From Methanoculleus bourgensis MS2 (lineage in GTDB: Archaea > Halobacteriota > Methanomicrobia > Methanomicrobiales > Methanoculleaceae), in assembly GCF_000304355.2 (NCBI RefSeq), contig NC_018227.2, positions 930,001 to 994,000 of the forward strand: a stretch of DNA of 64,000 nt, read 5' to 3'. The notes under the pieces are model-generated. The model saw only the letters and a program-made list of their open reading frames with translations. It had not been told where the DNA came from and searched no databases. A program made the translations under genes and the position numbers. How positions within the stretch are numbered: position 1 is the stretch's first letter; every line of letters begins with the position of its first letter. This document shows positions 35,024 to 64,000 of the stretch, piece after piece.

Positions 35024-35036
35024 AATATGTCATCCG

Positions 35037-41756: not shown

Positions 41757-41862
41757 GCCGCAACTCTTATGAAGTTCATCGCAGGTGCTCCCAAACGAGT
41801 CCAAGCTCCGATCTTTTCGACTGCCATATGCCTCTGATTTCTTTCTGAGTATTCTCCCGGGA

Positions 41863-42040
41863 GTCAACTACCCCCTCCTAACGGAGGGGGCTTGCCACCG
41901 GGGCCCCTTGCGGGGCACAGGGTTGCACTTTAATCTGTGCGAAGGGTGACGGTTCAAAAGTCGTCCTTATTCGCACCGGCCGGTTGACGCGGCCACTACC
42001 GATTATCCGTGGCACCACGGAATCACCGGCTACCTTTCGT
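41863..42040 (-). ncRNA. Predicted omega-RNA (reRNA) at the tnpB 3' end
   Basis: In TnpB elements the guide RNA covers the 3' end of tnpB and the right end. Here that segment is GC-rich, has paired arms (GGGGCC-CCTTGC-GGGGC and the terminal hairpin) and is the part conserved in the deleted copy at 52,311-52,500. The guide would be read from the bases following 41,862 on the minus strand. This is family knowledge plus conservation; folding was not computed. Confidence 0.4.
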
Positions 42041-43302
42041 GCATGGTTCAGAGCACCGTTGACATCAGCGTTGATCAGGGTTCCCAGAGCACTCTGGTAT
42101 AACCCCCGCTTGACCCGCCGCTTCCTTCCATAGGGTGGTTTGCGGATCGGGTCGAGGTTGAGCGCATCGACCTGCGAGGTGTATGCCTCGGAGTGCGAGT
42201 CATCGAACCGGATCCCGTACTGCTCGCACGTGCTCTTCAGTTTCCGCCGGAACTTGTGATACGGAATCTGCACGAAGTTCTGGTTCCCGCGCTTGCCGTG
42301 GTTGATCTTGTCCTTGATCCCATCCCAGCGAGGGAGTACAACCGTCCCGATCCGGTGCTGGAGAGCATAGTCCACGACCCAGGTCACATACCGGTTCATC
42401 GCCTCCTCGATCTGGCAGTCCCGCCGCTTCAGCAACCGTGCCTGCCGCTTCGTGATGCCGCCTATCCCCTGTTTGTCCTTGATGCTCTGCAACCATGCGT
42501 TCTCTTTGTTGTACCACCGGTTAATTGATTTGATACGCTTACCGTCGAGAATGACGGCAGCCCCGGTGGCGGTGTCAACCATCGTCGCAAAGTTGTTGAG
42601 CCCGAGGTCGATGGCAAGGTACTGGTCGGGGTCAAGGGGGTGAGGTTGGGTAGGAACACGGTAACAAAACTCAATCTTGTAGGCCATTCCGTTGTTGACC
42701 GGCAGGATCGTGACTTCCCGGATCTGGTGCGGTTTGATGCACGGCGGGATCGGGAACGTCAGCTCCTTGCCCGTCAACCCGTGCTGTTTCCGGAACTTGT
42801 GGGACATCCCGAGCGTGACAAACCGGCCCCGGATCGCCAGGTGTGCCCGGGGGAACGCCAGCTTGAACCGCCCATCTTTGGGGAGGTACTTCGGGGAACC
42901 GGGGCGGTCTTCGAGCTGCCCGTTGCGGTACAGGGCCAGCAACTCGAAATAACTCTTATACGCCTCTTCGACCGACTTCAGCGTCTGCTGAGCAGCGTCA
43001 CTGTGCAGCAACCCGTAGTTTTCGTTCTCTTTTGACTGCACATAGGTGCTGTACTCTTTGAAGGGGGAGTCTTTCTTTCGCGTGTAGGGGAGGTAGGATC
43101 CAACCAACACCTCAACCCCGGAGGTGAGATCCGGACGGATCCCCTGCAGGATCGCACGGTTCTCTCGGTGCGTTGCAGAGTGCTGCCGGACGTTGTACAG
43201 CCCCACGTTGTACAAGCTCTTGGCATGGTATGCGAGCGTGTCGATAATCTGGAACGTCTTCTTGGGAAGACGCAGATAGTTGCTGACGACCCGCAGTGCC
43301 AT
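41878..43302 (-). CDS. tnpB: TnpB RNA-guided endonuclease (IS605-type OrfB)
   Basis: 474 aa. The RuvC-like active site shows the first Asp in LAIDLGLNNFATMVDTATG, the Glu in SHSEAYTSQVDALNLDPI and the last Asp in LINADVNGALNHARK. This subgroup lacks the CxxC zinc ribbon between the last two motifs. The N-terminal part (LPKKTFQIIDTLAYHAKSLY) is the helix-turn-helix/WED region. TnpB proteins are guided by an RNA made from the transposon right end. The frame is intact, so it may be active. Its C-terminus runs into the right-end hairpin, as usual. Confidence 0.92.
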   Translation of the reverse strand: MALRVVSNYLRLPKKTFQIIDTLAYHAKSLYNVGLYNVRQHSATHRENRAILQGIRPDLTSGVEVLVGSYLPYTRKKDSPFKEYSTYVQSKENENYGLLHSDAAQQTLKSVEEAYKSYFELLALYRNGQLEDRPGSPKYLPKDGRFKLAFPRAHLAIRGRFVTLGMSHKFRKQHGLTGKELTFPIPPCIKPHQIREVTILPVNNGMAYKIEFCYRVPTQPHPLDPDQYLAIDLGLNNFATMVDTATGAAVILDGKRIKSINRWYNKENAWLQSIKDKQGIGGITKRQARLLKRRDCQIEEAMNRYVTWVVDYALQHRIGTVVLPRWDGIKDKINHGKRGNQNFVQIPYHKFRRKLKSTCEQYGIRFDDSHSEAYTSQVDALNLDPIRKPPYGRKRRVKRGLYQSALGTLINADVNGALNHARKVAGDSVVPRIIGSGRVNRPVRIRTTFEPSPFAQIKVQPCAPQGAPVASPLR

Positions 43303-44766: not shown

Positions 44767-45750
44767 TCATTTTTTCAATATTTCACGCCGATGATAATCC
44801 AGATACCTGATATGGCGCTCTTCTACCGTTCTTAGTCTCATTCTTGAATGAATCCCAAGTTTATTTCTGTCCCTGTCTTTTAGTACATCACTGATGATTA
44901 TTTTCCCGTCATTATCAAAACTAATATAGCCTCTATCAAAAGCACTGTCTAAGTTAGGGACAAGTAACAGACCATTGTAGTTGTCCAGGCGTTCTGCATT
45001 ATCTGAATCTCTCCAGGGCTTGATATGCGATGCTCTTAACAGATCGAGCGAATCGCACCCTGTAACGGCACATCTCTTCCAATAACCTATCAAACCGGAA
45101 CGAAACACTCCCTGACCAATACGGCTCTGTATTATTGATTCACGTTCCGTCTCAGGCAACTCTTTATTGGTTCTTTTAAATTCTTCAATCTCTTTCAAGA
45201 CATTAGTTTCAGGTGTATCGCTGTAACTTGGGCCGGGAATGCTTTGTCCAAGTTCATTGCTGATATATGCTAATAATTCAGGACTGTGCTTCTTCTGGCT
45301 GTCACTCCTCAACCAAACGTATTTGTTTGCAACTTTTTTTATGTACTCAAAATGAAAATCACGTATGATAGGCCAGATGTCCAGACTCTCCCCTGAGGGA
45401 ACATAATAGCCATTCCTTGATGGGACTGGCTCATACTCAGAATATTTGCCCCTCTCCCACCGCCATGCTTTACTTTTTTCTAACAGGCTCTGCTCATCTT
45501 TCATCTCATTCAGGAGTTGTTTATCAAGAGACAGCCATAATCCCTCTTTGTGAACGGTAAAAACAATCAGGCTGCCGACTAAGAGTCGGACACCTCCACT
45601 ATAGCAGTATGCTCCCCACTTGTCGCTCCCATAGGTATTAGCTTTAAGGAGCGATTCTACAAATAACGACAAACAAACCCTTCTATATTCTTCATTGGGC
45701 AAAAGTGATGATATAGTATGCTCAATTTGACGAATATCAGGATTCTTCAT
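44767..45750 (-). CDS. HNH endonuclease (restriction-type)
   Basis: 327 aa from the ATG at 45,750, which follows GGAG by 8 bases; an upstream ATG at 45,813 lacks such a site. The C-terminal HNH domain is clear: CAVTGCDSLDLLRASHIKPW then RLDNYNGLLLVPNLDSAFDR, with the H-N-D/H metal site. The N-terminal 220 residues are an unassigned, probably DNA-recognition, region. Similar stand-alone HNH proteins serve as modification-dependent or orphan restriction nucleases. AT-rich compared with core genes. Confidence 0.85.
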   Translation of the reverse strand: MKNPDIRQIEHTISSLLPNEEYRRVCLSLFVESLLKANTYGSDKWGAYCYSGGVRLLVGSLIVFTVHKEGLWLSLDKQLLNEMKDEQSLLEKSKAWRWERGKYSEYEPVPSRNGYYVPSGESLDIWPIIRDFHFEYIKKVANKYVWLRSDSQKKHSPELLAYISNELGQSIPGPSYSDTPETNVLKEIEEFKRTNKELPETERESIIQSRIGQGVFRSGLIGYWKRCAVTGCDSLDLLRASHIKPWRDSDNAERLDNYNGLLLVPNLDSAFDRGYISFDNDGKIIISDVLKDRDRNKLGIHSRMRLRTVEERHIRYLDYHRREILKK

Positions 45751-46039
45751 AGAAATTTCTCCATAACGCTTGGTTAATACTGGCTTGTATTCAGAATGGT
45801 TATATATTGCCATTGCTCAATGGCATATCCCGGAACTCATCAAATGACGCTCCCTGATTCGGTGGCACGCTCCTCACCTGAGAAAGTCCCACAGTTCCAA
45901 CCCGGACCCTGCACAATCTTACTGCTCGTGAACGTTTCCCATCTCGTACGTTCTTCTTCGGGTAGTTCTTTGATCCTGGAAGGACGTTCGCTACAAAGGA
46001 TTATAGGTAATTGAAAAAAAGTTAACATTCTACCACACA
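45751..46039. other. Intergenic stretch with a possible gene tail
   Basis: A minus-strand frame (45,840-46,040) contains RIKELPEEERTRWETFTSSK but no family signature. No RNA gene or terminator is evident. Confidence 0.25.
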
Positions 46040-49554: not shown

Positions 49555-51042
49555 TCAAGTATTTCTCCTGTCTGGTGCCGCCCACCACGGGACATACTTC
49601 ATCATCTTTGGAGCAGCGTCTGGATCGTAGGGGACAATCTCACCCATCTCCACCGCCTCTTTGATAAACCGTGAAACTGTTGCACTATTCTTCGTGGAGA
49701 TACCGAATCGCTCACGCAGAGAACTGTTTGTCAGATATTCACGGTTGACATATTTCAGGCAGGCATGGAGGTAACAGGCCCGCACACGGTCAGCCTTATC
49801 CATCCTGGCGAGCAGCCGGGGCGCAAAGAGGATTGACCGGGTGGCCTCTCCCGTAACTTCGAAGAAAGGAGCTGGGAGTTGGTAGAACTCCGTCTGGAAT
49901 ACAACCTTGTCAATACCGCTACCACGTTCTTCACAGATGCCCATGCGCCGCATCAAGGATGCCAGGGTTTCGTTCCGCGACTTTGGGGGTGAATCGAGAA
50001 ACCGTTCGGTTGCCACGAGTGGTATTCCGGGATTGCTTACTTCCATACGATCATCGAATATCTCTACCATCGGGCCGGTACCGGTGAGGGATAAATCCTG
50101 ATGGATCAACGCGTTCACCACCAGTTCACGCACTGCGAGCTCCGGATACATAGGAACGGTCTTGCGGAGGGCTTGCTGAATCACCTCATTAGAAGGTAAG
50201 AGACTGTTGATGGAGTCAATCAATGCTTCAAAGCCGCTCGCATAGCCCTTGTCGATCATCTGTTCCTTTATCGTTTCAATGCGGCTGTTTCCACGGTAAA
50301 GGATGATCCGCATCGCCTTTCGGCGAAGTGTCCGAAAGTCGCTCAGACGTCGGGCAAACGAGAGCGCTCCAAGGTTCGTGATGTTCCAGCCGCCAGCGTC
50401 GGCTGCACGGATGAGGTCGTCGTTCGCCAGCGCGTGCAGGATCCCATCACGACTTTCCGGTAGTGGGATGTTCATCAGGTCGAAGTAGGCGGGATAGTCA
50501 AGCAACCTCAAGACGTCTTCATTTGTAACCCGCTCTGCTGCGACACCCTCCTCGAAGGGCATCTGGTCGAAGATGCGCCACAGTGCCCGTTCTTTTTCCG
50601 GGAAGTCCTTGAGTTTCTTTTTGTAGGATCCTACCCTGATGAACTCCTGGCTCTGGAATCGCACAGGGTGGCAGAAGGCCCGCTCGACCTCCAGCAGGAC
50701 TACCAACCGCCCATCCATAGCCATCTCAAAGAAGCGGAAATTGATCCTGGGCGATAATAAGCGTAGCAGCCAGCTCTCCAACTCTTCATTGCCCATTCTG
50801 GTCTTGTGAGGAGAGAAGGTAGTGCCGACGATTGCATGCGTGCTGTCCTCAATGCCCCAGACAAGGTACGCAGAAGGCTTACCGCACAGAGCAGCAGCAT
50901 TGGCCAACGCCGAGATATATTCACCGATCTCCTGGGGTGCAGCACAACTCTGCTTGAACTCGACCCACTCGGTTTCCCGCGGCAACATGCAGAGCTCCCG
51001 GATAAGGCCTGCGAGGTAATCATCGGGGTAGTCTATCGCCAT
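49555..51042 (-). CDS. AlbA_2 (Schlafen-like) / GHKL-type ATP-binding protein
   Basis: 495 aa. Residues 15-130 are an AlbA_2 domain (ETEWVEFKQSCAAPQEIGEY, then ISALANAAALCGKPSAYLVW). Residues 300-400 are a GHKL-like ATPase (YPELAVRELVVNALIHQDLS, MEVSNPGIPL, GICEERGSGIDK). The C-terminus has a winged helix (SLRERFGISTKNSATVSRFI). Such proteins are frequent in type I restriction and defence operons, often as regulators. It starts within the end of the HsdS-like small frame (10-bp overlap) and is the last gene of the operon that begins at the truncated gene 52,310. Confidence 0.85.
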   Translation of the reverse strand: MAIDYPDDYLAGLIRELCMLPRETEWVEFKQSCAAPQEIGEYISALANAAALCGKPSAYLVWGIEDSTHAIVGTTFSPHKTRMGNEELESWLLRLLSPRINFRFFEMAMDGRLVVLLEVERAFCHPVRFQSQEFIRVGSYKKKLKDFPEKERALWRIFDQMPFEEGVAAERVTNEDVLRLLDYPAYFDLMNIPLPESRDGILHALANDDLIRAADAGGWNITNLGALSFARRLSDFRTLRRKAMRIILYRGNSRIETIKEQMIDKGYASGFEALIDSINSLLPSNEVIQQALRKTVPMYPELAVRELVVNALIHQDLSLTGTGPMVEIFDDRMEVSNPGIPLVATERFLDSPPKSRNETLASLMRRMGICEERGSGIDKVVFQTEFYQLPAPFFEVTGEATRSILFAPRLLARMDKADRVRACYLHACLKYVNREYLTNSSLRERFGISTKNSATVSRFIKEAVEMGEIVPYDPDAAPKMMKYVPWWAAPDRRNT

Positions 51043-51197
51043 GCCACGGCCTCCTCAGTTTCATCGTCGAGGTCCGCGCTTAGCAGACTGTTCATCTTCT
51101 GACAGGTATCCTCTTCATCGAGCGGTTTGGGCACCTCCCCGAGCCATGGCATGCCGGAACCCTTCATCGTGGGGTAGGGTTTAAGATCATGGACCAT
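51033..51197 (-). CDS. 54-aa protein beginning like an HsdS subunit (probable remnant)
   Basis: From 51,197 it reads MVHDLKPYPTMKGSGMPWLG and then EVPKPLDEEDTC. The first ~23 residues match the conserved N-terminus of type I specificity subunits (KPYPxxKDSGVPWLGEVP), but the rest is short and unrelated. It overlaps TIGR02391 upstream (11 bp) and AlbA_2 downstream (10 bp). It is either a leftover hsdS start that preserved translational coupling or a genuine small protein. Confidence 0.45.
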   Translation of the reverse strand: MVHDLKPYPTMKGSGMPWLGEVPKPLDEEDTCQKMNSLLSADLDDETEEAVAWR

Positions 51198-51999
51198 GGG
51201 CGTCCCCCAGCCCTGTTGGCACGCAATCATCCAGCTTCCGGTGTAGAAGTGAGAGCAGTGAAAAATAGTCTGCTGCATCGTCTTCACCTTTCCATAGGAT
51301 CTTCGGCTCGTGAGCCAGAGGGTTCCGTGCGGTTCCGAAGCACCCCTTCAATAGCATGGCAAAGCCTTTGTGCTCCGATTTCTCCGTTTCAGTCTGAAGC
51401 GAGTTAAGAGCAAGGAGTGGTTGATTGATTGCAAACACTTTGTCGACAAGTGCGGCTCCGTCAGCCTGGACCCCGGACATGTTGCGGATCCGCTGTGCAA
51501 GGCCCTTGGTCGCCTCGAAGACCGCGTGGAAGTAGTTGTCCTGCAAGAGCTCGGCACGGCAGTATTTCAGAACCTCGGGGTGTATGCGCCGGCCCCGGAA
51601 CTTAGCCTGAATTGTCTGGACGCGCCTTTCGGCTTCATCAAGTGTTTTTGCAACCCCTCGTTGCCGGAAATTTCCATCAGGGCCGTATTCAAGGCCAGAA
51701 AAAGATAGGATGACGTTGAGATCCCGGCGATGCGCCTCGAAAACATCGCTCTGCCCAGCGAAGCGAACGGGTTTCAAGAAGGATCCGATGAAGTGGAGCA
51801 CGTGATTTGCACATTGATATTGCCTCTGAGATTCGCGAAAGACCCAATGAAGACGCCGCCACTTGGTGGACTGACCGGACTTGTCCACCAACCCACAGTT
51901 GTCTAGCGCACGAGAAATCTCCGAACCGGCTCCGCACTCACCGAGCAAGCGAGCTAGCGCCTCTATCTGTTCATCCGAAAAAGGCGATACGGCGCTCAT
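51187..51999 (-). CDS. TIGR02391 family (Ymh-like, abortive-infection-type) protein
   Basis: 270 aa. The C-terminal half matches the TIGR02391/Hypoth_Ymh domain: LDEAERRVQTIQAKFRGRRI, VFEATKGLAQRIRNMSGV, then FAMLLKGCFGTARNPLAHEP (an RNxxAHE-like HEPN-type motif). The N-terminal part (FSDEQIEALARLLGECGAGS) resembles the AbiJ-N/HTH start of such proteins. These genes commonly ride inside type I restriction operons and are thought to act in RNA-targeting abortive infection. The start overlaps the upstream 38-aa frame by 4 bp. Confidence 0.82.
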   Translation of the reverse strand: MSAVSPFSDEQIEALARLLGECGAGSEISRALDNCGLVDKSGQSTKWRRLHWVFRESQRQYQCANHVLHFIGSFLKPVRFAGQSDVFEAHRRDLNVILSFSGLEYGPDGNFRQRGVAKTLDEAERRVQTIQAKFRGRRIHPEVLKYCRAELLQDNYFHAVFEATKGLAQRIRNMSGVQADGAALVDKVFAINQPLLALNSLQTETEKSEHKGFAMLLKGCFGTARNPLAHEPKILWKGEDDAADYFSLLSLLHRKLDDCVPTGLGDAHGP

Positions 52000-52862: not shown

Positions 52863-53321
52863 TCAGGCATCGGTTGCTTCCTCTCCGGCCCGCCTGAGGA
52901 TGAGGCGGTAGTCCTCCTCGGGGATCTCGCGCATGGCCTGCCGGAGGTGGCCGGACCACATCTTTTTGTTCGTGATGAATGTGAGGTCGGGGATCAGGGG
53001 CTTGAACTCAAGGGGTTCGGGGAAGACCGCAACCGGTTTGACCTTCATGCGGAAGGGGAAGACCTCGTCGCCCATATGCGGTGGGGTGGTAAAGAGGCGG
53101 GCGTGGTCTTCGTAGGGTTCGGAGACGACTTCGTAGGCTCCGGTTATCGCTGAGGGGAGGATTGTGTCGTCCTCTTTCTCCTGCCGGACGTACACGAGGA
53201 TGGTGTCGCCGGGCTTCACCCGCTGCATGAGGTTTCTGTTCCGCTTTGGAACTCCCCAGATGTGCTTCGCATCGAGGATCTTAGCGTTGTCCCGGTTGGA
53301 AGAGGCGATTCAGTGGGTTAT
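52863..53321 (-). pseudogene. EVE-domain gene (copy 3), inactivated at its start
   Basis: Nearly identical to the intact EVE gene at 54,858, but the start codon is ATA (53,321-53,319) and the fourth codon TGG is TGA (53,312-53,310). From there the frame is open: IASSNRDNAKILDAKHIWGV through [21 protein letters not shown] shorter protein could start at the ATG at 53,228 (121 aa) but would lack the N-terminal part of the pocket. Its stop overlaps ATGCCTGAGAAG, the start of a lost downstream gene. Confidence 0.85.
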
Positions 53322-53506: not shown

Positions 53507-54421
53507 TCAGTTTGACTCGTAACTCTGCAGGATCAGGGGGGTTGCTCTCTTTATGTCTGCATCGGAGCGGATCAGTATCTCGAGGTCTCCTGTTCCGTAA
53601 TACCCCTTCCCTCTGACATCCTGGGTGAACCCCGGCTCTAATTCGATCGTGTCGGGATCGAGTTTCACCCGGACGGCGAGCTCCCCTCTCCTCTGGATGC
53701 TGACACAGGCAAAGTTCTTGATCCGCTTGAACGCAACATAGTTCTTGAGCACCTTTGTCTGGACGTCGTCACCGAGTGCCTCGATGTAGGTCTTCAAGAC
53801 CTCAAAGCGGTTCTGGAGCTCCACGTCGAGGCGTGCAAGGTCTTCAGAGAATGTTGGTGCAATGCGGGCTGAACTCGGTCCGGTGCTGCCGCTGGATAGC
53901 ATAGTGGAACTCTGGGCAGCGGTCGCGTTCACGAGTTCTAACAGCAGGAGGTCGTCGTCGAACTTCCGGTAGCGGATAAGCTCGATGTTGCGGTTGATCT
54001 GCTGGACCGCGTGAGTATCGTACTTTGTAAAGTCCCCGGCTATGCAGAGGAGCCGGGGGTTGCTCCAGTCCAGCCTCTCTCCGTAGTCTTCCCCCAGTTT
54101 CTTGAGAACCATCAACTCAAACTCAGCCTTATGGTCGAGGAGCCAGTCCAGGTAGTAGAGCCCCTGGTTGATGACGTTCTCATTGATGGCGCGTTTGTAC
54201 TCGATGATGACGGGGAAACCGTTCTCGTCGATGCCCAGGGTATCGATGCGGCCGCCGTGCGTCTTCCCGGTGGAGTATTCGCTCTCAAGGAACGTGATCC
54301 CGAGCAGGGGTTCCAGGTTCTTCTCGATGTAGATCTGGAGAGACTTCTCGAGTGCGACTGAAGATCCTTTGAGTTCACGGGCTTCCGTGCCGTCGATGCG
54401 GAAGATGCGGATGTCACCCAT
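53507..54421 (-). CDS. PD-(D/E)XK (DUF91/NucS-like) nuclease with C-terminal DUF5655
   Basis: 304 aa from the ATG at 54,421, 4 bp after the DUF365 gene. Residues 20-150 form a NucS/DUF91-like nuclease: GGRIDTLGIDENGFPVIIEY with D60, E74 and K76 as the PD-(D/E)XK triad, then NQGLYYLDWLLDHKAEFELM. After a Ser-rich linker (about 172-188) residues 190-304 form DUF5655 (QTKVLKNYVAFKRIKNFACV, then GKGYYGTGDLEILIRSDADI). Proteins with this pair are common in prokaryotes but poorly studied. Being last of an EVE-DUF365-nuclease set next to BREX suggests DNA cleavage under control of the two PUA-like readers. The upstream extension of the frame is DUF365 shadow. Confidence 0.82.
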   Translation of the reverse strand: MGDIRIFRIDGTEARELKGSSVALEKSLQIYIEKNLEPLLGITFLESEYSTGKTHGGRIDTLGIDENGFPVIIEYKRAINENVINQGLYYLDWLLDHKAEFELMVLKKLGEDYGERLDWSNPRLLCIAGDFTKYDTHAVQQINRNIELIRYRKFDDDLLLLELVNATAAQSSTMLSSGSTGPSSARIAPTFSEDLARLDVELQNRFEVLKTYIEALGDDVQTKVLKNYVAFKRIKNFACVSIQRRGELAVRVKLDPDTIELEPGFTQDVRGKGYYGTGDLEILIRSDADIKRATPLILQSYESN

Positions 54422-54425
54422 GGAC

Positions 54426-54854
54426 TTACCCCCGGAGATACTTCCCCCCGACCGGGACGAACCGCTCGGGTTTCCGGGGTTTGTCGTAGCGGCGGATATC
54501 CTCAAGTTCGAGCGCCATCCACGCCCGCTTCTTCGCCTCGCCCTTCCTGACCCGGATCCCCTGCCACTGTTCCTGGCTCTCCACGTAGGCTTTGACCTCA
54601 TCCCGGGTGAGGAAGACCGCATCCCCAAAGGTCTCGAAGAACGCGAGGGGGTTATCGTTGATAACGATCCGCCTGATCGTCGCCTCCCCGACGTAGCCGG
54701 TCTCCTCCCGGGACTGGTAGAAGACGAGTTTCATGCCGCTCCGGAGTTCTTTGAAGACGGTGGCGGGCTTGATGAAGACGGTTTTTCCTTCGGCAAAGAA
54801 CCGGGGCATGAGGGATTTGGGGACCGGGAAGGTGACGCCGGTGATCTCGGGCAT
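54426..54854 (-). CDS. DUF365 family protein (PUA/ASCH-like)
   Basis: 142 aa: MPEITGVTFPVPKSLMPRFF, FYQSREETGYVGEATIRRIV, AVFLTRDEVKAYVESQEQW and KPERFVPVGGKYLRG are typical of the archaeal DUF365 family. The strand pattern is PUA/ASCH-like, a fold that binds modified bases in RNA or DNA. It starts 3 bp after the EVE stop. Function is unknown; I propose nucleic-acid recognition by analogy. Confidence 0.8.
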   Translation of the reverse strand: MPEITGVTFPVPKSLMPRFFAEGKTVFIKPATVFKELRSGMKLVFYQSREETGYVGEATIRRIVINDNPLAFFETFGDAVFLTRDEVKAYVESQEQWQGIRVRKGEAKKRAWMALELEDIRRYDKPRKPERFVPVGGKYLRG

Positions 54855-54857
54855 CGG

Positions 54858-55307
54858 TTATGCCTCCTCTCCGGCCCGCTGGAGGATGAGGTGGTAGTCC
54901 TCCGCCGGGATCTCGCGCATGGCCTGCCGGAGGTGGCCGCTCCACATCTTCTTGTTCGTGATGAATGCAAGATCCGGGATCAGGGGCTTGAACTCCAGCG
55001 GTTCGGCAAAGACCGCTACTGATTTGACCTTCATGCGGAAGGGGAAGACCTCGTCGCCCATATGCGGCGGGGTGGTAAAGAGGCGGGCGTGGTCTTCGTA
55101 GGGTTCGGAGACGACTTCGTAGGCTCCGGTTATCGCTGAGGGGAGGATTGTGTCGCCCTCTTTCTCCTGCCGGACGTACACGAGGATGGTGTCCCCGGGC
55201 TTCACCCGGTGCATGAGGTTTTTGTTCCGCTTTGGAACTCCCCAGATGTGCTTCGCATCGAGGATCTTTTGGTTGTCGCGGTTCGAGGAGGCGATCCAGT
55301 GGGTCAT
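54858..55307 (-). CDS. EVE-domain protein (modified-base reader)
   Basis: 149 aa from the ATG at 55,307 (MTHWIASSNRDNQKILDAKH). The EVE domain, a PUA-like fold, covers it all: WGVPKRNKNLMHRVKPGDTI, LVYVRQEKEGDTILPSAITG, then [20 protein letters not shown] and SGHLRQAMREIPAEDYHLIL. EVE domains bind methylated or hydroxymethylated cytosine and related bases and are often coupled to restriction nucleases. It lies 64 bp downstream of brxL on the same strand and heads the DUF365-nuclease pair. An upstream ATG (55,337) was rejected because family members begin at MxxW. Confidence 0.85.
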   Translation of the reverse strand: MTHWIASSNRDNQKILDAKHIWGVPKRNKNLMHRVKPGDTILVYVRQEKEGDTILPSAITGAYEVVSEPYEDHARLFTTPPHMGDEVFPFRMKVKSVAVFAEPLEFKPLIPDLAFITNKKMWSGHLRQAMREIPAEDYHLILQRAGEEA

Positions 55308-55371
55308 AAGAGTGGATTGGTGGGGTAGTATAATCAAACTTATTCAGGGAGCGACAACCTGCTCCGGTATC

Positions 55372-57408
55372 TCACTCACCAAGAACCTTGAACAGGGCGT
55401 CCCGTGGATCCTTATAGTAGATGACCATCAGCCGGGACGCCAGGTCATCTGACATCTCGTTGAGTTGCCTCCGGCTGGATACTGGTAGCAGGATTGCTGA
55501 TGCCCCGTTTTCCGCGGCTAACTCCGCCATATCCAGTGCACTATAGACCGGTTCGACCGTCCCGCCCACACTAATACCCCCTGCTACGACCACCCCGCCT
55601 TTGAGACTTCTGCCCAACGCCGCGGAGCAGAGTGCAAGAAGAATTGACATTCCTAGCGACGACGCCCCCTTTACCGCGGTGAGCGCACGGACCTGAACGG
55701 AGAATTCGCTCCCCTTCGGATCCCGGTCGCCTATAAGCGACTTAGCCTGTGTGTAGAGAACCTGTTCTGCAGCGCGGAGCCCCTCGCGAAGTCCGGAGGG
55801 TGCTTTTACATTGATCAGGCGGATGGATGAACCTGGAGTAACCGTGACCTCAATCTTATAGAGGCCGCTTCCTTCGTTCTCGTCACCCGGACCGACTGCC
55901 CAGACCTGACCTGGGGGCAGCGGGTCCTGCCCGATCTCGTTTTCGCTGTGTAACTCCGGGGTTGAAACATACTGTTCAATACCGTCCAGACCGAGCCTGT
56001 AACTGAACATGGTGTTGCGGAACTCGGCAGACCCGATCCGTTTCTGTTGCTCTTTGACCCTGCGGCGACACTCGAGGGCTATGCGCACCGCCCACTCAAG
56101 GGTCTCATCAGATATCTCCATATCTGGTGAGGGGTAGATGAGTTTCAGGAGCCCGTTTACGGTCTTATTCACGGCCCGGCGGTCACGGCCGCTCAATGCG
56201 TCCCCGAAGAAGACACGGTCATTGATGAGGTGGAGCCGGTTCTCGCTTCGAAGCTGTCTCCAGCATTCACTCAGGAAATCGCTGACAAGACCGAAATGTT
56301 CTGTCATCATATCCGGGTGAATCTTCGGGTAATCCCACCCCGGGACATAACTGTGAATCCGGTCCATGAACGCTGTATCGTCGCGGATCTCTTTTGGCAG
56401 CGGGCCGAAGAGGTGGCCCACCCGCTGCTGGTGCTCGACGTCAACGTCGAAGTTGCCGAGCATGACAATGCCACCCTCGGCCCTGATGCTTTCCCTGCCC
56501 CGGGAGAACTCCCCGCTCTCCATGTAGCCCTTCATGATGTTGACGCCGTCTTTCTGGTCAAAGTTGATCCCTGATACTTCGTCGAAACAGACGATGTCGT
56601 ACTGGCATACGAGGCCGCGCTGCCCGGTTGCATTGTTCACGAACATCTTGGCGACCGTTGCCTTTCCGCCGGAGACGAGGTGGGAGTATGGGCTGACCTG
56701 CTGGTAGAGGTAACTCTTCCCGGTTCCCCGGGGGCCAAGCTCGATCATGTTGTAGCCCTTCTCGACAAACGGGACCATGCGGAGGAAGAGGACATCCTGT
56801 GCTCTCGATGATAACGAGGAGGGTTCTATCCCGACACTCCGGATGAGGATATCCTTCCATTCCTGGTCTGACATGCTCTCCCGCCCTCGGGTGACATCAT
56901 TGAGGACGTTCCTCTTTGAGAGCTGGATGGGGCGCAGGCGCATAACCGAGAACGGGCGGTTGCTCTCAGGATCGCCGTATGCGAGTTCGATCTCTGCATA
57001 AAATCCGCCGGTCAGCATCCGCTCATGTTCGTAGACGAGTTCTGATGAGATGTGGACATCGTTCAGGAGGAGAGAGGGGACCGTGGCAAGGAACGAATCT
57101 GACTTGGCATCGAGCCGGGCGGTGATAAGGTCAATGACTTTGACGCTGCCGTGGACCTTTGCCTGCGCTTTGTAGAGTTCCTGCTCCCCTGCACGGACGA
57201 TGCGTTCGCTGAGCTGACGCTGGACAATCTCGAGCCCCTCTCTGATCTCCTCTTCATCGGTTGTGGCACAGTATTTTCCGATGAGGAACTCCGCAACGTA
57301 GGTGGGGACCGGGTAGTTTCCTTTGAACTTCTGCGCGAGGTCTTTTCTGACAACGTAGCCGTCAAAGACGTCGGCAACTAACTGGTCGAGGGCGTCTAAT
57401 TCTGCCAT
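55372..57408 (-). CDS. brxL: BREX effector BrxL (Lon-like AAA+ protein)
   Basis: 678 aa, the usual BrxL length. The N-terminal DUF4357-like region is followed by the AAA+ domain with Walker A LGPRGTGKSYLYQQ (about 240-253) and Walker B DIVCFDEVSGINF. The Lon-protease-like C-terminal domain shows the Ser loop KGASSLGMSILLALC and the GGVVVAGGISVGGTVEPVYS loop. BrxL is a DNA-bound multimer needed for phage restriction in BREX type 1. It follows pglZ by 3 bp. Confidence 0.94.
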   Translation of the reverse strand: MAELDALDQLVADVFDGYVVRKDLAQKFKGNYPVPTYVAEFLIGKYCATTDEEEIREGLEIVQRQLSERIVRAGEQELYKAQAKVHGSVKVIDLITARLDAKSDSFLATVPSLLLNDVHISSELVYEHERMLTGGFYAEIELAYGDPESNRPFSVMRLRPIQLSKRNVLNDVTRGRESMSDQEWKDILIRSVGIEPSSLSSRAQDVLFLRMVPFVEKGYNMIELGPRGTGKSYLYQQVSPYSHLVSGGKATVAKMFVNNATGQRGLVCQYDIVCFDEVSGINFDQKDGVNIMKGYMESGEFSRGRESIRAEGGIVMLGNFDVDVEHQQRVGHLFGPLPKEIRDDTAFMDRIHSYVPGWDYPKIHPDMMTEHFGLVSDFLSECWRQLRSENRLHLINDRVFFGDALSGRDRRAVNKTVNGLLKLIYPSPDMEISDETLEWAVRIALECRRRVKEQQKRIGSAEFRNTMFSYRLGLDGIEQYVSTPELHSENEIGQDPLPPGQVWAVGPGDENEGSGLYKIEVTVTPGSSIRLINVKAPSGLREGLRAAEQVLYTQAKSLIGDRDPKGSEFSVQVRALTAVKGASSLGMSILLALCSAALGRSLKGGVVVAGGISVGGTVEPVYSALDMAELAAENGASAILLPVSSRRQLNEMSDDLASRLMVIYYKDPRDALFKVLGE

Positions 57409-57411
57409 CTT

Positions 57412-59703
57412 CTACTCGCCTCCTATGGTCGTCTGCCGCTGAGCCGTGGTGTTTCCATGCTCATCCAGGATGACGATCATCGCATCCGTTCCTTCAAGGC
57501 CATCGTCCGGGACAACAAGCGCGACATCCCCTTCGGGGGGGATGGGTTTTGCGTCCATAGTGACACTTGTCTTCGGGTCGCCGGGCTTTAGCCGGATATC
57601 AGCAGTATATCCCCCGGCGCCCTTGACTGTGACATAGCAGCGGAGTCCTCTCCAGGCCGGTGTCTGGATAACCAGGTTCCGGGCTCCAGGCGATCCGCGG
57701 GTAACGACGATATCGGGCACGACAACCTCCTGGGGGCTTAAGCCCCCATGGTCATACTCTTTGCCTGCTTCAAAGCAGGTGATGCCGGGTGCGAGGGCAA
57801 CCCGGATGGTTCTATTCCAGAACCACGGTACTGTAGGGAGAGAGACGCTGCTGTCGGGCAGGAGCTCCGCACACCGGCCTTTCTTCATCGCGACGAGCGA
57901 AGGAGGGAGTTCGGTCTTGACCAGACCGCCCGGCAGGAGGAGCCATCCATGGTCGGTGACGACGCGGACCTGCTGCCACCCGGCATCGAGGAGGTCGATG
58001 ATCCGCCGCTCGATCGTTGTGAGTTCGCCGTCCAGGATCACTGGCAGTTCACTGCCTTTATCATGCCCTTCACGGTCGATGTTCCCGCATTCTGTCCATG
58101 CCCTGCCCTCCGGGTCTCCATCATCGTTATCTCCCAATACCTGGATATTCTGCTCTTTCAGGAGCGTCCTGAGTGCGGAGATCTGTGCGCCTGCTCCGGT
58201 CCTGGTTGCCGGGGTGAGGTTCTTCCCTGCAGCAAGTTCCCCGGCGATGGGCATTACGGCAGGTTTTGCGGTCTCGGTGATGGAGGGGAGAGCAGCGAGC
58301 CGGTGGGTCAGGGAGCATGTGCAGCCTGCTCTCGCAAGCTGCTCCTGCAACCGGCGGCCGAGGTCCATACGGAGCCCGTCGACGAAGAGCAGGACCTCAC
58401 CCTGAGGTGGTTTCCATGTTTCTTTCTCCTGCTCGGGGGGAGATGCGAGCCATTCCTCCTGGAATGCCGTGGCGAGCGCCTCAAGCCACGCACGCGCGAG
58501 AGTACGGACTGCAGCGGTGACGGCCGCTCGATCCTCCTTTCTCTCGATCTGAGCCAGTGCCCTGACGATGGCGTCGTCAGCCTTCCAATACTCCTGAGCG
58601 TAGCGCTCCGCCTGCTCGGTGATGGTTCCGCCGAACCTGAAGTCGCCTGTCAGCTCGGCGAGCCGGGCGAGGTGCTGGAGGGCGAAGGCAAGTGGGCTTT
58701 CACCGAGGTCGGCCCAGACCCACGAGCGGCGTTCCCCATGTTCCTCTTCAAGCCGCACGATCTCCTGGCGGGCTTCGCCGTGGGAAGCGCTCTGCAGGCC
58801 GAGGAGGGCCTGGCGGAGGGCTTCTTCCATGGCATCGTTGATCTGGGGCCACGAATCCTTGAACATGGGTAGCGGCGGCATGCGGGCGTTCCGGAGCAGT
58901 GTGGGGATGTTTGGGTACGCCTGGGGATACTCCCTGTACCGCTCCCAGACCTGCGCCCATCGCTGGTCCTGTGAGGCGAGCCGTTCTGCGGCGGTTGCGA
59001 CACCGTCGGTATGGGGATCGAACCCGTAGTCTGTCTTGCACATGTACCGGAACAGCGGCCATTCTTCTGCACCTATCCGTTCTTTCTCTTCCTTTGGAGC
59101 GTTCATCCAGAGGAGGATCTGTTTCCGGTAATCCGGGTGGATGAGGGTGGCGAAGTAGGCGGCGTTGAGGGGCTGGTGCGTCTGGATCGACCTGACAGGT
59201 TCGCTGCAGAGTTTGCCGACCGTGTTTCTGAGGGATTCTTTCGTCTCCTGGTCAGAAGCGGTATCGATACCGAGGTGTGCCTGGAGAAATCCTGCCACCG
59301 TCCAATCCCGCCCGTTCCGGTGGGACCAGATTGCGCCGCGGTACTGGAGTTCGGCGAGAGGCCGGAGGGGTTCGGGGCAGTCCCCGATGTTGCGGAGTTC
59401 GATCCTGGAGTGGCCGGGGAGGTAGATGACCGGCGTTTCATTGTCGGGTAGCCCTGTTCCGGGGAGGGTGTCTTCGACGAGACAGCGGATGTAGATGGCC
59501 GGCCCCTGCCGGCGGTCAGGGGCGTAGTCGCCGAGTGTTATGATCGGCAGTCCCCGCTCCTCCCGCAGCAGGGTTGCCACCGGCTGCCACTCTCCGGTCG
59601 GGTCGGGCCAGAGGAGCGCGGCCGGGGGTACGGCGTCTCCGCGGTCGTAGTTCTTGATTGCCGCCCTGATAGCGTCGTCGATCGCGTCAAGCAAGGTCTT
59701 CAT
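57412..59703 (-). CDS. pglZ: BREX alkaline-phosphatase-like protein PglZ
   Basis: 763 aa. The PglZ alkaline-phosphatase core is visible as EVLLFVDGLRMDLGRRLQEQ (first metal/nucleophile region) and VRVVTDHGWLLLPGGLVKTE (second metal site). The N-terminal half (LLWPDPTGEWQPVATLLREE) and the beta-rich C-terminal tail match BREX type 1 PglZ. It overlaps pglX by 4 bp. Its biochemical role in BREX is a nuclease or phosphodiesterase activity tied to the methyltransferase complex. Confidence 0.93.
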   Translation of the reverse strand: MKTLLDAIDDAIRAAIKNYDRGDAVPPAALLWPDPTGEWQPVATLLREERGLPIITLGDYAPDRRQGPAIYIRCLVEDTLPGTGLPDNETPVIYLPGHSRIELRNIGDCPEPLRPLAELQYRGAIWSHRNGRDWTVAGFLQAHLGIDTASDQETKESLRNTVGKLCSEPVRSIQTHQPLNAAYFATLIHPDYRKQILLWMNAPKEEKERIGAEEWPLFRYMCKTDYGFDPHTDGVATAAERLASQDQRWAQVWERYREYPQAYPNIPTLLRNARMPPLPMFKDSWPQINDAMEEALRQALLGLQSASHGEARQEIVRLEEEHGERRSWVWADLGESPLAFALQHLARLAELTGDFRFGGTITEQAERYAQEYWKADDAIVRALAQIERKEDRAAVTAAVRTLARAWLEALATAFQEEWLASPPEQEKETWKPPQGEVLLFVDGLRMDLGRRLQEQLARAGCTCSLTHRLAALPSITETAKPAVMPIAGELAAGKNLTPATRTGAGAQISALRTLLKEQNIQVLGDNDDGDPEGRAWTECGNIDREGHDKGSELPVILDGELTTIERRIIDLLDAGWQQVRVVTDHGWLLLPGGLVKTELPPSLVAMKKGRCAELLPDSSVSLPTVPWFWNRTIRVALAPGITCFEAGKEYDHGGLSPQEVVVPDIVVTRGSPGARNLVIQTPAWRGLRCYVTVKGAGGYTADIRLKPGDPKTSVTMDAKPIPPEGDVALVVPDDGLEGTDAMIVILDEHGNTTAQRQTTIGGE

Positions 59704-62700
59704 GCGTCCTTCACCGCCGCTCTCGCCTTCCGCTTCGCGTCGAGCGCGAGGTGTAGGTCGTTATGCCGCTCCTGGGTCCCGGACGCGTTCGGCACCGGGT
59801 CTTTCCCGCGGTCTTTCTTCCAGTTAATCCTCGGTTGTGACCGGAGCACCCCGGCTTCGACGAACGGGCGGATGTTGAGCCGCACCCCGTCGTTCGGGTC
59901 GGGGTCCCAGCCGATCGGCTGTTCGTGGAGCGGTTTCCACCGGACGAAGATGTCGTACGGGGCTTCGCCTTCGAGTATCTTTGCGAGCCGTTCCTTCAGG
60001 TCCTCTGCGGCCGCGAGCCGTCGTTCAGCACCCGGCACCTCGTTCTGCACTTCGGCCCGTTGCTGGGCGATCCAGGCGCCGAGGTAGGTGTAGGTCAGCC
60101 GCTCGAGGTTCCGCCTGTCGAGGTTATGGTAGTTAAGGAGCACCGAGAACCCGTCCTTTGTCCCGTCCCAGACCTGCCAGATGAACGGCCGGTGGCCGAA
60201 GAGTTTGCAGTGGGAGGCGAAGAACTCGTCGCGGAGGAACCCTTCGAGGTCGCCTTTGAGGTTCCCGTCTTTCTTTGTGTATCCGATCCCTCGGAGGAGT
60301 TCGTTCTCCGTATTTGGTGACCATGCCGGGCCGTAGGCGGCGGCGAGGAGTTCTCTGAGCCGGTCCACGAGCCTTCCTTCACCCCGGATGGAGGGGATGG
60401 CGACGATGCCGTCCTGGTCGGCGAAGGAGAGGAGTTTTTCGCTCTCTGCCACCCATTCCCTGGCCTCTTTCGAGAGTTCCATCTCCGGATCCAGTTCGGC
60501 GGGCCAGCGATAGCCGAGGAGGCGGGCGATGGCGACATGGAGGACGGCTCCATCGGTGCGGAGCGGCCCGCGGGCGAGCATCTTCGTCTCCTCATCCCAG
60601 ATGACGCTCCCGCAGGGGTGGCCGTGGAAGATCCACTGGGTGGGGTCGTCTGAGTAGGGCTCGGGAAGGCCGTGGGGGTACTTCTCGGCGGCGACTTTTT
60701 GCCAGTGATCGAGGTCGAAGGGGACTTTGACGAGGGTGGCGTTGGTGACATTGAGTTTTTGGTCGATCTTCCGGACGGCTATGTTGTAGTCGGGAGAGGA
60801 GCAGAAGCACCAGATGGCGGGAAGATGGGAGGGATCGTGGGGGAGAACAACTGCGGTATTTTTATCGAATATTTCTCCAAAATACAAAGTCGCGGGTAAT
60901 TCACTCATCTGACTGATTTGGACACCTTTTTTCCTCCATGCCAGCCCCCCGGCAGGGATTGCTAATCCTTTTCTTCCCAGCTCCGCAAGCAAGCCTTTGC
61001 CATTTTGCCAATAGACAAGTTGTTCTTTGCCACCAAAATCGATTGTACGACCAACAGTTGTTGACATTATCTGCCAATCCTCGTTAGGAGCGAACATTTC
61101 CCAAAATTGACGGAAATATCGAGGAGAATCTTTACTTCCAAAACCATGAACTCCGTTAGAATATTCGGATAATAGTGTAGAAGTGCCCTGATCATCTGCT
61201 ACTATCCTTGCATCCGGATTCTCCAGCTGCGCCGCCTGCTCCACACATGCCATCTCTGCATCTAGCAGAGACCGGGCCTTGGCCGCCGCGTCGCGCTCCT
61301 CCGAGACATCCAAACCGCAGAGCAGATGGCCCGCCGGTGGTTTCGTATGGGTGATGTTCAAGAGAATGGCATTAACAACATGCCCGGAGATGGTCTCGAA
61401 TGCACCCGGGCCCAATCTCGCCAGCAGGTCCCAGCGCTCGTTCTTCAGGAGGTACTCCCTGAACCGCCTGTATGATACCAGGAAGAGCCAGTTCTGCGGC
61501 AGGACGATGCTGACCTTGCCCCCCGGCCGGCAGAAGGAGAGGCACCGTTCAAGAAACACCGTTGCAATATCGTTCTTTCCACAGGGATGGTGCTCCTCGA
61601 TGAAGGATTTCAGGAGGTTTCCTTGATTTCCGCTCGACAGGTAGGGAACATTCGTCATGACGTAATCATACCGCCCGGCAAGAAGCCCCGCCGCCTTCAG
61701 CACGCCGTGCCCCGTCTCTCCGAACGTCTCTGCAACCGGATCGCCCGCTTCCTTCTCCCGCCGCAACGCCTGCTCAAACTTCTTCGCCAGGGCGGCCCGG
61801 TCGACGAGGGTCTGTGGGTTCTCTACCTTGATCAGGCTCCCGAGGGTATCGGCGTTCTTGAAGAGGTCGTAGTACTGCTCAAGCACGCCCTCGAGCAACC
61901 CGTCCCCGCCCGCCAGCTTCAGCCACTCCTCCTTCTCCGCCCGGATCGGTATCCCCGTACAGGCAAGGTTCGGGACCGGCAGGTACGACTCCGTCGGCGA
62001 GAACCCCGCCTTCCACGCCTCCAGCGCGATGGAGAACGTCGCGATCTGGATGCACCGCGGGTCAAGTTCGAGCCCATGGAGGTTGTCCCTTACAATATCC
62101 CTGATCGCGTCCTCGGTCTCCTCGCCGAGTTCCCTCCGCATAGCAAGCAGCATATGGAACGCCGCGACCAGGAAGTGCCCGCTCCCGCAGCAGGGGTCAA
62201 GGATCTTCAACTCAGCCGGGCTCTCCGGCCAGGCGGAGAAATCGTGCTGCACTTGCTCCTTGTAGTAGACCCACTCCTCCCGAAGCGAGCTATCAGGATG
62301 GAGGTGAAGCCACCAGGCGCCGAGCGTGTTCTGGAGCAGGAACTGCACCATATAGGGCTCGGTGAAGAGCTGGGTCACCGCACAGATATCATACCCTTCC
62401 ACCTTCTTCCCCGATGCGTTCACCTCCTTCTTCTTCTCCGTCTGCCAGAACTGGTAGGTCCACCCAAGCGCATCCTCGGCGCGGAACGTCTCCTCAGGTA
62501 TCCCCGCAAGGATCGCCTCGAGCGCGGCGGTATCCTCGGTCGCGTACCGAACTTGAGTGAGCGGGCTCTCCTGCCGGAAGATCCCCGGGAGCATCTTGGC
62601 CGCGTAGCCCGCCGCGACCTCCCAGAGATCCCGCCCCTCCTCACGGGCGATCTCCTCACACTCAGCAAGAGTGACCGGCACTCCAAACTCCGGGTGGATC

Positions 62701-62978
62701 AACAGGCGGTTCTCTGCCAGGAACCGTGCAAAGAGCATCCGGTGCCACTGCTCGTAGGCCACCGACCTGACAAGGTCATCAAACGACCCGAGCCTGCGGC
62801 ATTCAGCCCGCAACCGCCTGCGGAGCTCCGCCTGCTCTGCGGTGAGGTATGCCGGCTTCCTCTCCTCCCGAACACCGAGCGCCGAAAGAGCATTCTTTGC
62901 GCCGAGTTCGGCCTTCCTGCGAGCCTCCTGTACCGCTCCATCAAGGGCATTACGTTCTTCCCGGGTGAGCACCGTCAT
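59700..62978 (-). CDS. pglX: BREX adenine-specific DNA methyltransferase PglX
   Basis: 1092 aa. The AdoMet-binding motif LDPCCGSGHFLVAAFHMLLA lies near residue 265. The catalytic region reads YVMTNVPYLSSGNQ near residue 440, an NVPY variant of NPPY. A large target-recognition half follows. It methylates one strand of the BREX site at N6-adenine, marking self DNA. Both ends overlap neighbours by 4 bp (brxC, pglZ). It is a little shorter than the usual ~1200 aa, but no break is seen. Confidence 0.94.
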   Translation of the reverse strand: MTVLTREERNALDGAVQEARRKAELGAKNALSALGVREERKPAYLTAEQAELRRRLRAECRRLGSFDDLVRSVAYEQWHRMLFARFLAENRLLIHPEFGVPVTLAECEEIAREEGRDLWEVAAGYAAKMLPGIFRQESPLTQVRYATEDTAALEAILAGIPEETFRAEDALGWTYQFWQTEKKKEVNASGKKVEGYDICAVTQLFTEPYMVQFLLQNTLGAWWLHLHPDSSLREEWVYYKEQVQHDFSAWPESPAELKILDPCCGSGHFLVAAFHMLLAMRRELGEETEDAIRDIVRDNLHGLELDPRCIQIATFSIALEAWKAGFSPTESYLPVPNLACTGIPIRAEKEEWLKLAGGDGLLEGVLEQYYDLFKNADTLGSLIKVENPQTLVDRAALAKKFEQALRREKEAGDPVAETFGETGHGVLKAAGLLAGRYDYVMTNVPYLSSGNQGNLLKSFIEEHHPCGKNDIATVFLERCLSFCRPGGKVSIVLPQNWLFLVSYRRFREYLLKNERWDLLARLGPGAFETISGHVVNAILLNITHTKPPAGHLLCGLDVSEERDAAAKARSLLDAEMACVEQAAQLENPDARIVADDQGTSTLLSEYSNGVHGFGSKDSPRYFRQFWEMFAPNEDWQIMSTTVGRTIDFGGKEQLVYWQNGKGLLAELGRKGLAIPAGGLAWRKKGVQISQMSELPATLYFGEIFDKNTAVVLPHDPSHLPAIWCFCSSPDYNIAVRKIDQKLNVTNATLVKVPFDLDHWQKVAAEKYPHGLPEPYSDDPTQWIFHGHPCGSVIWDEETKMLARGPLRTDGAVLHVAIARLLGYRWPAELDPEMELSKEAREWVAESEKLLSFADQDGIVAIPSIRGEGRLVDRLRELLAAAYGPAWSPNTENELLRGIGYTKKDGNLKGDLEGFLRDEFFASHCKLFGHRPFIWQVWDGTKDGFSVLLNYHNLDRRNLERLTYTYLGAWIAQQRAEVQNEVPGAERRLAAAEDLKERLAKILEGEAPYDIFVRWKPLHEQPIGWDPDPNDGVRLNIRPFVEAGVLRSQPRINWKKDRGKDPVPNASGTQERHNDLHLALDAKRKARAAVKDA

Positions 62979-64000
62979 CTGAGCACCACCGGGTTCCCCT
63001 TCTCAAGTTCGGCCACCGCCCGTCCGCGAACCTCCTCCAGGTACGCATCGAGGTCATCCCGGGTCTTCACCGTCACCGGCGCCCCGAGAGAGACGACCAC
63101 GGTCTCCGGTTCAAGGATCTTTGCCACCTTCACCCTGATCCGGTCAAGCGCCCCCCTGACCAGCAGAATCCGGCCGTCAAAAGACGTCAGCGGAGTCTTC
63201 CTGAGGTGCTCCACGATCTCGTCATCGGTCCCCGTCCTCAGCGGGAGAGGCTCGTTAAGGTAGTGTGCCCGGACCAGACTCGCCCGCTGCTTCTCATCCA
63301 GCCTGTGCCAGTCTGGGTCGGCATCCAGCGCGAAAAGCACCTCCTGTCGGGTCTCCTCCAACCGGACCGTCCCGGCCTTCAGGGACTCACGCAGCCCCCT
63401 CCGAAGATCAGCAAGCAGTGGTTCGACCGGGTCAGGATCATTGAGCAGGCTCCGGTTCTCACGGATCGCCGTCACCTCGGTCTTGATGTCCGGAAGGTCC
63501 AGAAACCCCTCAGCGTGCGAGATCAGGTGCTGCAGGGCATCCCAGGCAGGCACCCGCTCCTCGATCTTCGCTTTTACCGCTATCCACCGGTCAATATCCT
63601 GTTTGATATCGACACGCCGCGCAACCAGTTCCCGCACCAGCTGGTTGCCCGAGTATGCCCGGAGTTCAGCAAGGTACTGGGGTGACACCCGTGGCGGCAG
63701 CGGGGGATCTCCGCCGGTAGCCTTGACCAGGGAATGGAGGCAGTCAAGGAACTGCACCGCCTCTTCCACCTCACGTCCGGGCTCTGAAGGCAGATCAAAC
63801 TTCGTATAGAGTTCCCGGGCCGCCACCTTCTCCATGGGAGAGAGGACGATATTCTCCGCTTCAAACGTCGCCTTACCTATCTTCGTCTTATCCAGTTCGG
63901 GGGCAGAAACCGGCTTGTTATTGAACCGGGCCTTCAGGTGACCGGTGGCCACCAGCACCATCAACGCCCCGTCCACCGCGTCCCGCGGCCACCCAAACGG
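62975..64000 (-). CDS. brxC: BREX P-loop ATPase BrxC, C-terminal part (continues past the window)
   Basis: The frame is open to the window end (PFGWPRDAVDGALMVLVATG onward), about 340 residues. It matches the C-terminal region of the roughly 1200-aa BrxC ATPase: GKATFEAENIVLSPMEKVAA and LDADPDWHRLDEKQRASLVR. The P-loop lies outside. It is upstream of pglX with a 4-bp overlap, giving the order brxC-pglX-pglZ-brxL expected for type 1; brxA and brxB should follow beyond base 64,000. Confidence 0.9.
   Translation of the reverse strand, partial: PFGWPRDAVDGALMVLVATGHLKARFNNKPVSAPELDKTKIGKATFEAENIVLSPMEKVAARELYTKFDLPSEPGREVEEAVQFLDCLHSLVKATGGDPPLPPRVSPQYLAELRAYSGNQLVRELVARRVDIKQDIDRWIAVKAKIEERVPAWDALQHLISHAEGFLDLPDIKTEVTAIRENRSLLNDPDPVEPLLADLRRGLRESLKAGTVRLEETRQEVLFALDADPDWHRLDEKQRASLVRAHYLNEPLPLRTGTDDEIVEHLRKTPLTSFDGRILLVRGALDRIRVKVAKILEPETVVVSLGAPVTVKTRDDLDAYLEEVRGRAVAELEKGNPVVLR

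Follow-up and report, generated by a model that had tools for sequence, protein, structure and literature searches.

We analyzed a window of 64,000 nucleotides from Methanoculleus bourgensis MS2, in which three genes stand directly behind the last gene of a complete BREX type 1 operon (brxA-brxB-brxC-pglX-pglZ-brxL). The features that matter here, in window coordinates, are the following.

52871..53321, minus strand: pseudogene of a second EVE gene, followed by a remnant of a DUF365 gene start (93% identity to the first copy over 300 nt)
53507..54421, minus strand: PDC-S18 nuclease, 304 amino acids, with a NucS-type PD-(D/E)XK domain and a DUF5655 tail (PDLC04946)
54426..54854, minus strand: DUF365 protein, 142 amino acids, predicted ASCH/PUA-like fold (PF04033)
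54858..55307, minus strand: EVE-domain protein, 149 amino acids, archaeal UPF0310 / PH1033-MJECL36 type, gene 1 of the cassette (PF01878)
55320..55345, minus strand: region of a TATA-like box (TTATACTA), ~26 bp before the EVE start (sequence motif)
55372..57408, minus strand: brxL, final gene of the BREX type 1 operon (PDLC02506, E = 4e-285; TIGR02653 above cut-off)
57412..59703, minus strand: pglZ of the BREX operon
59700..62978, minus strand: pglX of the BREX operon
62975..63976, minus strand: 3' part of brxC of the BREX operon; brxB and brxA lie past the window edge

As a sequence-only reading of this DNA had described, the three genes follow brxL on one strand with gaps of 3 bp (EVE/DUF365) and 4 bp (DUF365/nuclease). 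The brxL gene, which lies upstream, ends 64 bp from the EVE start. EVE, DUF365, and S18 are all outside the core BREX gene set. That description was accurate for the three genes and missed the pseudogenized second EVE copy, which sits downstream of the nuclease gene.

What kinds of proteins do these genes encode? The first matches the EVE family (PF01878) over residues 3 to 143 (E = 3e-26; 92.5 bits against a cut-off of 23) and resembles PDB entries 1wmm and 2p5d by sequence (E ∼1e-42). Among 19 relatives, 39 columns are invariant, and N9, R10, N12, W22, G23, P25, W122, G124, and H125 are among the invariant residues. The EVE domain of the type IV enzyme VcaM4I flips and binds 5mC/5hmC (PMC7897488), and by analogy the EVE protein here may be a reader of modified bases. 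The second protein belongs to DUF365 (PF04033; E = 2e-37; 128 bits against a cut-off of 25.9), and its AF2 model (mean pLDDT of 77.7, compared with 79.5 for the model of S18) predicts a beta-barrel of the ASCH/PUA type. The top structural match was AF2351 (2kku; Z = 15.8), and the best match outside the family was the Zymomonas mobilis ASCH protein 5gus (Z = 12.5, rmsd 2.6, 124 aligned residues). Matches to 2eve (Z = 8.0) and to the YTH structure 9h35 (Z = 7.7) do not set EVE or YTH apart from the remaining PUA folds as relatives of DUF365, since Z values of 7 to 8 are close to noise; the ASCH likeness is clearer. Homology between EVE and DUF365 was unsupported by sequence (BLASTP E = 0.16; hhalign probability of 1%). 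The earlier proposal that both proteins have PUA-like folds that read modified bases therefore held for the folds, through Pfam and the ASCH match. Base reading by DUF365 is not secure, because its best analogue is an ASCH protein reported as a single-stranded RNase (PMC5615036). Residues 13 to 109 of the DISARM protein DrmA (PDB 7s9w/7s9v) also resemble the DUF365 model, at a Z of 8.2 that is near the noise level, and DrmAB may thus carry a PUA/ASCH-like domain.

The third gene encodes a protein that matches the PADLOC model PDC-S18 (PDLC04946) over positions 18 to 322 of 365 (E = 9e-140) and the Pfam family DUF5655 over residues 202 to 304 (E = 2e-10). PDC-S18 is a PADLOC candidate phage defense gene; the PDC genes were collected through guilt by embedding, and validation is still pending for most of them (PMC12988326). 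Residues 24 to 159 of the AF2 model aligned best with NucS of Pyrococcus (2vld; Z = 12.8, rmsd 2.2, 106 aligned residues), with Shedu and other PD-(D/E)XK nucleases ranking below NucS. The nuclease triad D60/E74/K76 and the DUF5655 domain are both present, as first noted from the letters of the window. A lack of conservation of the nuclease residues had been named as grounds for dropping the defense hypothesis; instead, D60, E74, and K76 were invariant among 92 S18 sequences, together with E25, Q86, and Y90 (Q86-x3-Y90). For the DUF5655 part, the model gives a hint of likeness to YdhG/YjbR (CyaY-like) proteins, with Z values of 8 to 9 on 93 to 106 residues against a noise level of 7 to 8. In the literature searched, from which subscription papers were excluded, we found no paper on DUF5655, no reported function for PDC-S18, and, by title, none on DUF365 that concerned restriction, BREX, or EVE.

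Could S18 be a housekeeping DNA repair enzyme, a mismatch nuclease like NucS/EndoMS with no role in defense? Its N-terminal domain is indeed closest to NucS/EndoMS (Z = 12.8 and 12.6). As a whole protein, it fell below the cut-offs for NucS_C (E = 5e-4; score of 20.5 against 24) and for NF003270 (21.5 bits where 216 are needed, with only part of the nuclease domain covered), and we rejected its assignment as a NucS/EndoMS mismatch endonuclease proper. The gene is also spread patchily, occurring in 38 of 232 genomes of the order even when fragments are included. Plasmid copies were seen, copies are found beside restriction-modification (RM), BREX, and DISARM genes, and two have decayed (L075 and L087). 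A repair function is thus extremely improbable.

The region in front of the EVE gene has no Shine-Dalgarno-like sequence and carries a TATA-like box near −26, so the triad is probably transcribed from its own promoter and not only by read-through from brxL; the EVE transcript is probably leaderless. The DUF365 gene is preceded by GGAGG, located within the end of the EVE gene. Among 23 distinct EVE upstream regions, 17 had a TATA-like motif at −38 to −18, compared with 4.7 in shuffled sequences, a count that is supportive rather than a blind test because the motif set was picked after the sequences had been inspected. The motif was absent upstream of S18 (0/13 regions), which suggests that S18 is a later gene on a transcript begun at EVE.

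The second EVE gene has lost its start codon (ATG to ATA), has a stop codon in place of Trp4 (TGG to TGA), and carries a 2-bp deletion at its own stop codon. These lesions rule it out as a functional gene, and an internal ATG could still yield a fragment of 121 amino acids. Most of the differences from the first copy (19/32) fall at third codon positions, as between working genes, so its inactivation looks recent. Judged by its sequence, it is a relic of another EVE-DUF365 unit. Two EVE 3' fragments, at 39692 to 39880 (plus strand) and 27184 to 27369 (minus strand), are leftovers showing that the island once held additional EVE units.

The rest of the island holds several other genes. Past the EVE pseudogene lie a TIGR02391/Hypoth_Ymh gene (PADLOC PD-Lambda-3_B; 51187 to 51999, minus strand) and an AlbA_2-HATPase (Schlafen-like) gene (49555 to 51042, minus strand); AlbA-type genes were likewise seen near EVE-DUF365 in three other loci (L070, L086, and L091). 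Farther away are an HNH_2 endonuclease gene (44767 to 45813), an IS605 TnpB (OrfB) gene (41878 to 43302), and a DUF4062-HATPase-HTH gene (40212 to 41867), all on the minus strand. A tRNA-Leu gene (28927 to 29011, plus strand) is followed by PDC-S42 (29596 to 30468) and, beyond it, by a complete type I RM system, hsdS-hsdM-hsdR (32293 to 37370). The region from the tRNA gene to position 37370 is likely an island near the tRNA.

Do the three genes recur together? A search of the 232 genomes gave 15 near-full-length S18 loci (the window's own and L061 to L074). Rarity of the combination elsewhere had been regarded at the outset as an argument against a common module; the search found EVE within 1 kb of S18 at 11/15 loci, DUF365 at 7/15, and both at 6/15. 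For a handful of EVE genes per 2.5-Mb genome, we estimate the probability of chance adjacency at roughly a fraction of a percent. The co-occurrence spans families f1, f2, and f4. The order was EVE-DUF365-S18 in the window and in L063, L064, and L070 and EVE-S18-DUF365 in L068 and L073, and 3/15 loci had neither EVE nor DUF365 within 1 kb (L065, L067, and L074). EVE-DUF365 pairs without S18 were common (L081 to L084, L086, L089 to L091, L095, L096, L098, and L100) and made up most of the EVE-DUF365 pairs in the order; in L087, S18 is reduced to its first 35 residues behind EVE-DUF365. The idea of the triad as one unit did not survive this comparison: the subsets EVE-DUF365, EVE-S18, DUF365-S18, and S18 alone are frequent enough to rule out a fixed triad.

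The association with defense genes, which the sequence-only reading had wanted scored, was pronounced: EVE, DUF365, or S18 loci lay near BREX, DISARM, or type I, III, or IIG systems in 24/39 cases versus 3/40 random windows matched for size and drawn from the same genomes. A locus was counted only if the matching query came from another genome (Fisher P = 3e-7; P = 1e-8 without two of the three positive control windows, which overlapped islands already counted). Because random windows rather than other genes of such islands served as the control, the result demonstrates linkage to these systems but no functional tie stronger than that of any other gene in an island, and part of the enrichment may reflect the clustering of defense genes in islands.

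The partners were of several kinds. PADLOC identified BREX beside L061, L082, and L098, DISARM-type DrmD/DrmMI beside L064 and L089, type III RM beside L066, type I RM beside L063, L071, and L083, and IIG beside L067; for other loci with homologous neighbors, the assignment rested on clustering or on resemblance to the window's BREX proteins. With five kinds of partner, the notion of a BREX-specific part had to be abandoned. In five loci (the window's own, L068, L085, L090, and L098), EVE starts 9 to 71 bp behind brxL on the same strand. Where the neighbors are DISARM, type III, or type I genes, the unit is in most cases oriented divergently from them, at a distance of 48 to 303 bp. Near-identical EVE and DUF365 proteins adjoin different systems. 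On the DUF365 tree, the partner system changed 11 times, compared with 11.4 times in shuffled data, so DUF365 does not group by partner; one kind of cassette serves many systems, and we rejected the idea that DUF365 is tuned to the mark of its partner. For EVE, grouping by BREX was as tight in 3/500 shuffles, a result confounded by kinship.

We then considered S18 outside the order. GTDB genomes contain at least 551 relatives, the best 80 of which are 55 to 82% identical and belong to many phyla. With profiles built from archaeal members, EVE or DUF365 was detected near S18 at 0/76 loci outside the Methanomicrobiales-type group. These data rule out a dependence of S18 on EVE/DUF365 and indicate that S18 needs no such readers as a rule. 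RM genes lay within 6 kb at 26/76 of these loci, and at 6/76 (L123, L126, L133, L148, L156, and L158) S18 was wedged into hsd operons beside hsdS, hsdM, or hsdR. The embedded copies span bacteria of several phyla, are unlinked to EVE, and take a prrC-like position. In a quick tree, all S18 rows linked to EVE/DUF365 (12/12) fell within one branch of 13 (SH-aLRT of 92), whose 13th member, L101, also has DUF365; it comes from a Methanomethylophilaceae MAG, is 82% identical, and lies on a contig that may be mis-binned. Since linked S18 is confined to this branch, the coupling of EVE/DUF365 to an older nuclease probably arose once, in archaea.

Searching the whole phylum for DUF365 led to a second archaeal family (f9) in which EVE and DUF365 are again close together, with other genes. 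The arrangements are EVE-HicA-HicB-DUF365 (L243), EVE-HicB-DUF365 followed by a PDC-S11 nuclease across a 5-bp gap (L255), EVE-HEC-05-DUF365 adjoining an IIG-type methyltransferase (L248), and EVE-DUF7669 protein-DUF365 (L250). PDC-S11 is, like S18, a NucS-like nuclease. Because this family pairs EVE and DUF365 with other effectors, the constant part is EVE + DUF365, and the effector varies: the slot beside the readers holds PDC-S18, PDC-S11, HEC-05, or HicAB. At three loci of the family (L243, L245, and L254), the genes that separate EVE from DUF365 are HicA-HicB or are small and match HicAB in size. Another neighboring gene in the family is closest to the glycerol-3-phosphate dehydrogenase 1txg, which we take to be from Archaeoglobus fulgidus. 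In family f3, one locus (L259) lacks EVE and carries two DUF365 genes behind the pglZ-brxL genes of BREX.

Are these simply bystanders, three independent defense or selfish genes pooled in islands with no common mechanism? The mixed gene sets described above fit this explanation, as does the window itself, a large island near tRNA-Leu with scattered EVE remnants. However, the gaps of 3 to 4 bp and the common promoter pattern argue against it, as do the recurrence of the same pairs in several families and the pairing of EVE with DUF365 around unrelated effectors in the second archaeal family, and we regard it as unlikely.

The HicAB genes in the slot at some loci bear on a different possibility, a toxin-antitoxin or tRNA-cleaving abortive system in which DUF365 would cut RNA as ASCH ribonucleases do and EVE would recognize modified RNA. 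The best fold match of DUF365 outside its family is an ASCH protein with reported cleavage of single-stranded RNA (PMC5615036), and Bell et al. discuss EVE/ASCH sets as toxin-antitoxin-like (PMC7641849). Yet S18 and S11, the nucleases that recur as effectors, resemble NucS in having a DNase fold, and the partners that were identified methylate DNA. Of homologues acting in tRNA or rRNA metabolism, the remaining ground named at the outset for dropping the defense hypothesis, none was seen. An RNA-directed module is, in our view, very unlikely.

Our data are best explained, with moderate confidence, if EVE-DUF365-PDC-S18 is a separately promoted accessory anti-invader cassette in which two PUA-like readers gate a swappable effector. 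Such a cassette would attach to a defense system that places methyl marks on the host DNA: BREX in this window and, at other loci, DISARM or a type I, III, or IIG system. EVE, and possibly the ASCH-like DUF365, would read the base-modification state of DNA and in this way bring the NucS-type nuclease to invader DNA or release its activity there. The targets would be invaders missed by the partner system, such as those whose bases carry modifications from the start, making the cassette a multigene, type-IV-like second layer and not a core part of BREX. A point against it is that many methyltransferases beside the cassette are N6-adenine enzymes, which leaves room for reading of the mark that the host itself carries. 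The S18 loci that lack both readers, the many EVE-DUF365 pairs without S18, and the RNase activity reported for an ASCH protein also weigh against it.

An alternative is a guard, or backup effector, with the logic of PrrC or PARIS. The effector would be held inactive, through EVE/DUF365 reading host methylation or through contact with the partner, and would be set free when a phage blocks the methylating or restriction system; either the cell or the phage DNA would then be destroyed. No guard is known to us that relies solely on a NucS-type DNase, and DUF365 does not follow the partner system, both of which count against this explanation. The six loci with S18 inside bacterial hsd operons, like prrC inside ecoprrI (PMC12707154), speak for it, as does the presence of HicAB or HEC-05 in the same slot in the second archaeal family. 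BREX loci also carry such backup nucleases, which are widespread there (PMC12839542). We consider a guard somewhat unlikely. For S18 by itself, a guard and a type-IV-like cassette predict opposite outcomes.

A broader form of the gated cassette is possible and clearly more tentative: EVE + DUF365 may be a general-purpose reader pair for any DNA-methylating defense, gating an exchangeable killer (S18, S11, HEC-05, or the HicAB toxin). If true, the pair would add to archaeal immunity a modular layer that has had no name so far, and a constant reader pair with changing effectors and partners would make the choice and gating of backup effectors directly testable in archaea. The cassette would also give context to PDC-S18, a nuclease spread across many bacterial and archaeal phyla, and a first working hypothesis for DUF365.

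How does the cassette compare with known systems? The claim that no system of this composition had been described held for the triad in the literature searched, subscription papers excluded, and the combination EVE-DUF365-PDC-S18 is in that sense new. Its parts had been flagged before, PDC-S18 by PADLOC and standalone EVE in archaea with type I RM, often with ASCH proteins, and with DUF499 systems (Bell, Wolf & Koonin 2020, PMC7641849). Those sets share with ours a standalone EVE beside a methyltransferase-based system, mostly in archaea, and a second protein of the PUA superfamily. Here, however, the second protein is DUF365, which we did not find named in PMC7641849; PDC-S18 joins the unit, BREX, DISARM, and type III RM are among the partners, and the effectors are exchanged.

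BrxU, a type IV (GmrSD) enzyme that complements BREX (PMC8565348), is likewise a nuclease added to a BREX locus, with modified phage DNA as a possible target. BrxU belongs to the GmrSD family, whereas in the cassette the PUA-like proteins are encoded apart from the nuclease, which is a PD-(D/E)XK enzyme of the NucS type; the two showed no relation in sequence, and no GmrSD-type domain was matched by Pfam or PADLOC in EVE, DUF365, or S18. PrrC and PARIS are accessory effector genes inside RM or BREX loci, but they cut tRNA, and S18 has a NucS-like DNase fold with no ATPase partner seen. VcaM4I (EVE-HNH) and the EVE-PD(D/E)XK fusions combine an EVE reader with a nuclease in one chain (PMC7897488 and PMC7641849), whereas here the two are separate genes with a second PUA-like protein. 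Finally, the nuclease is a full-length member of PADLOC PDC-S18, which is listed as a single gene, whereas here it comes third in a cassette, after EVE and DUF365.
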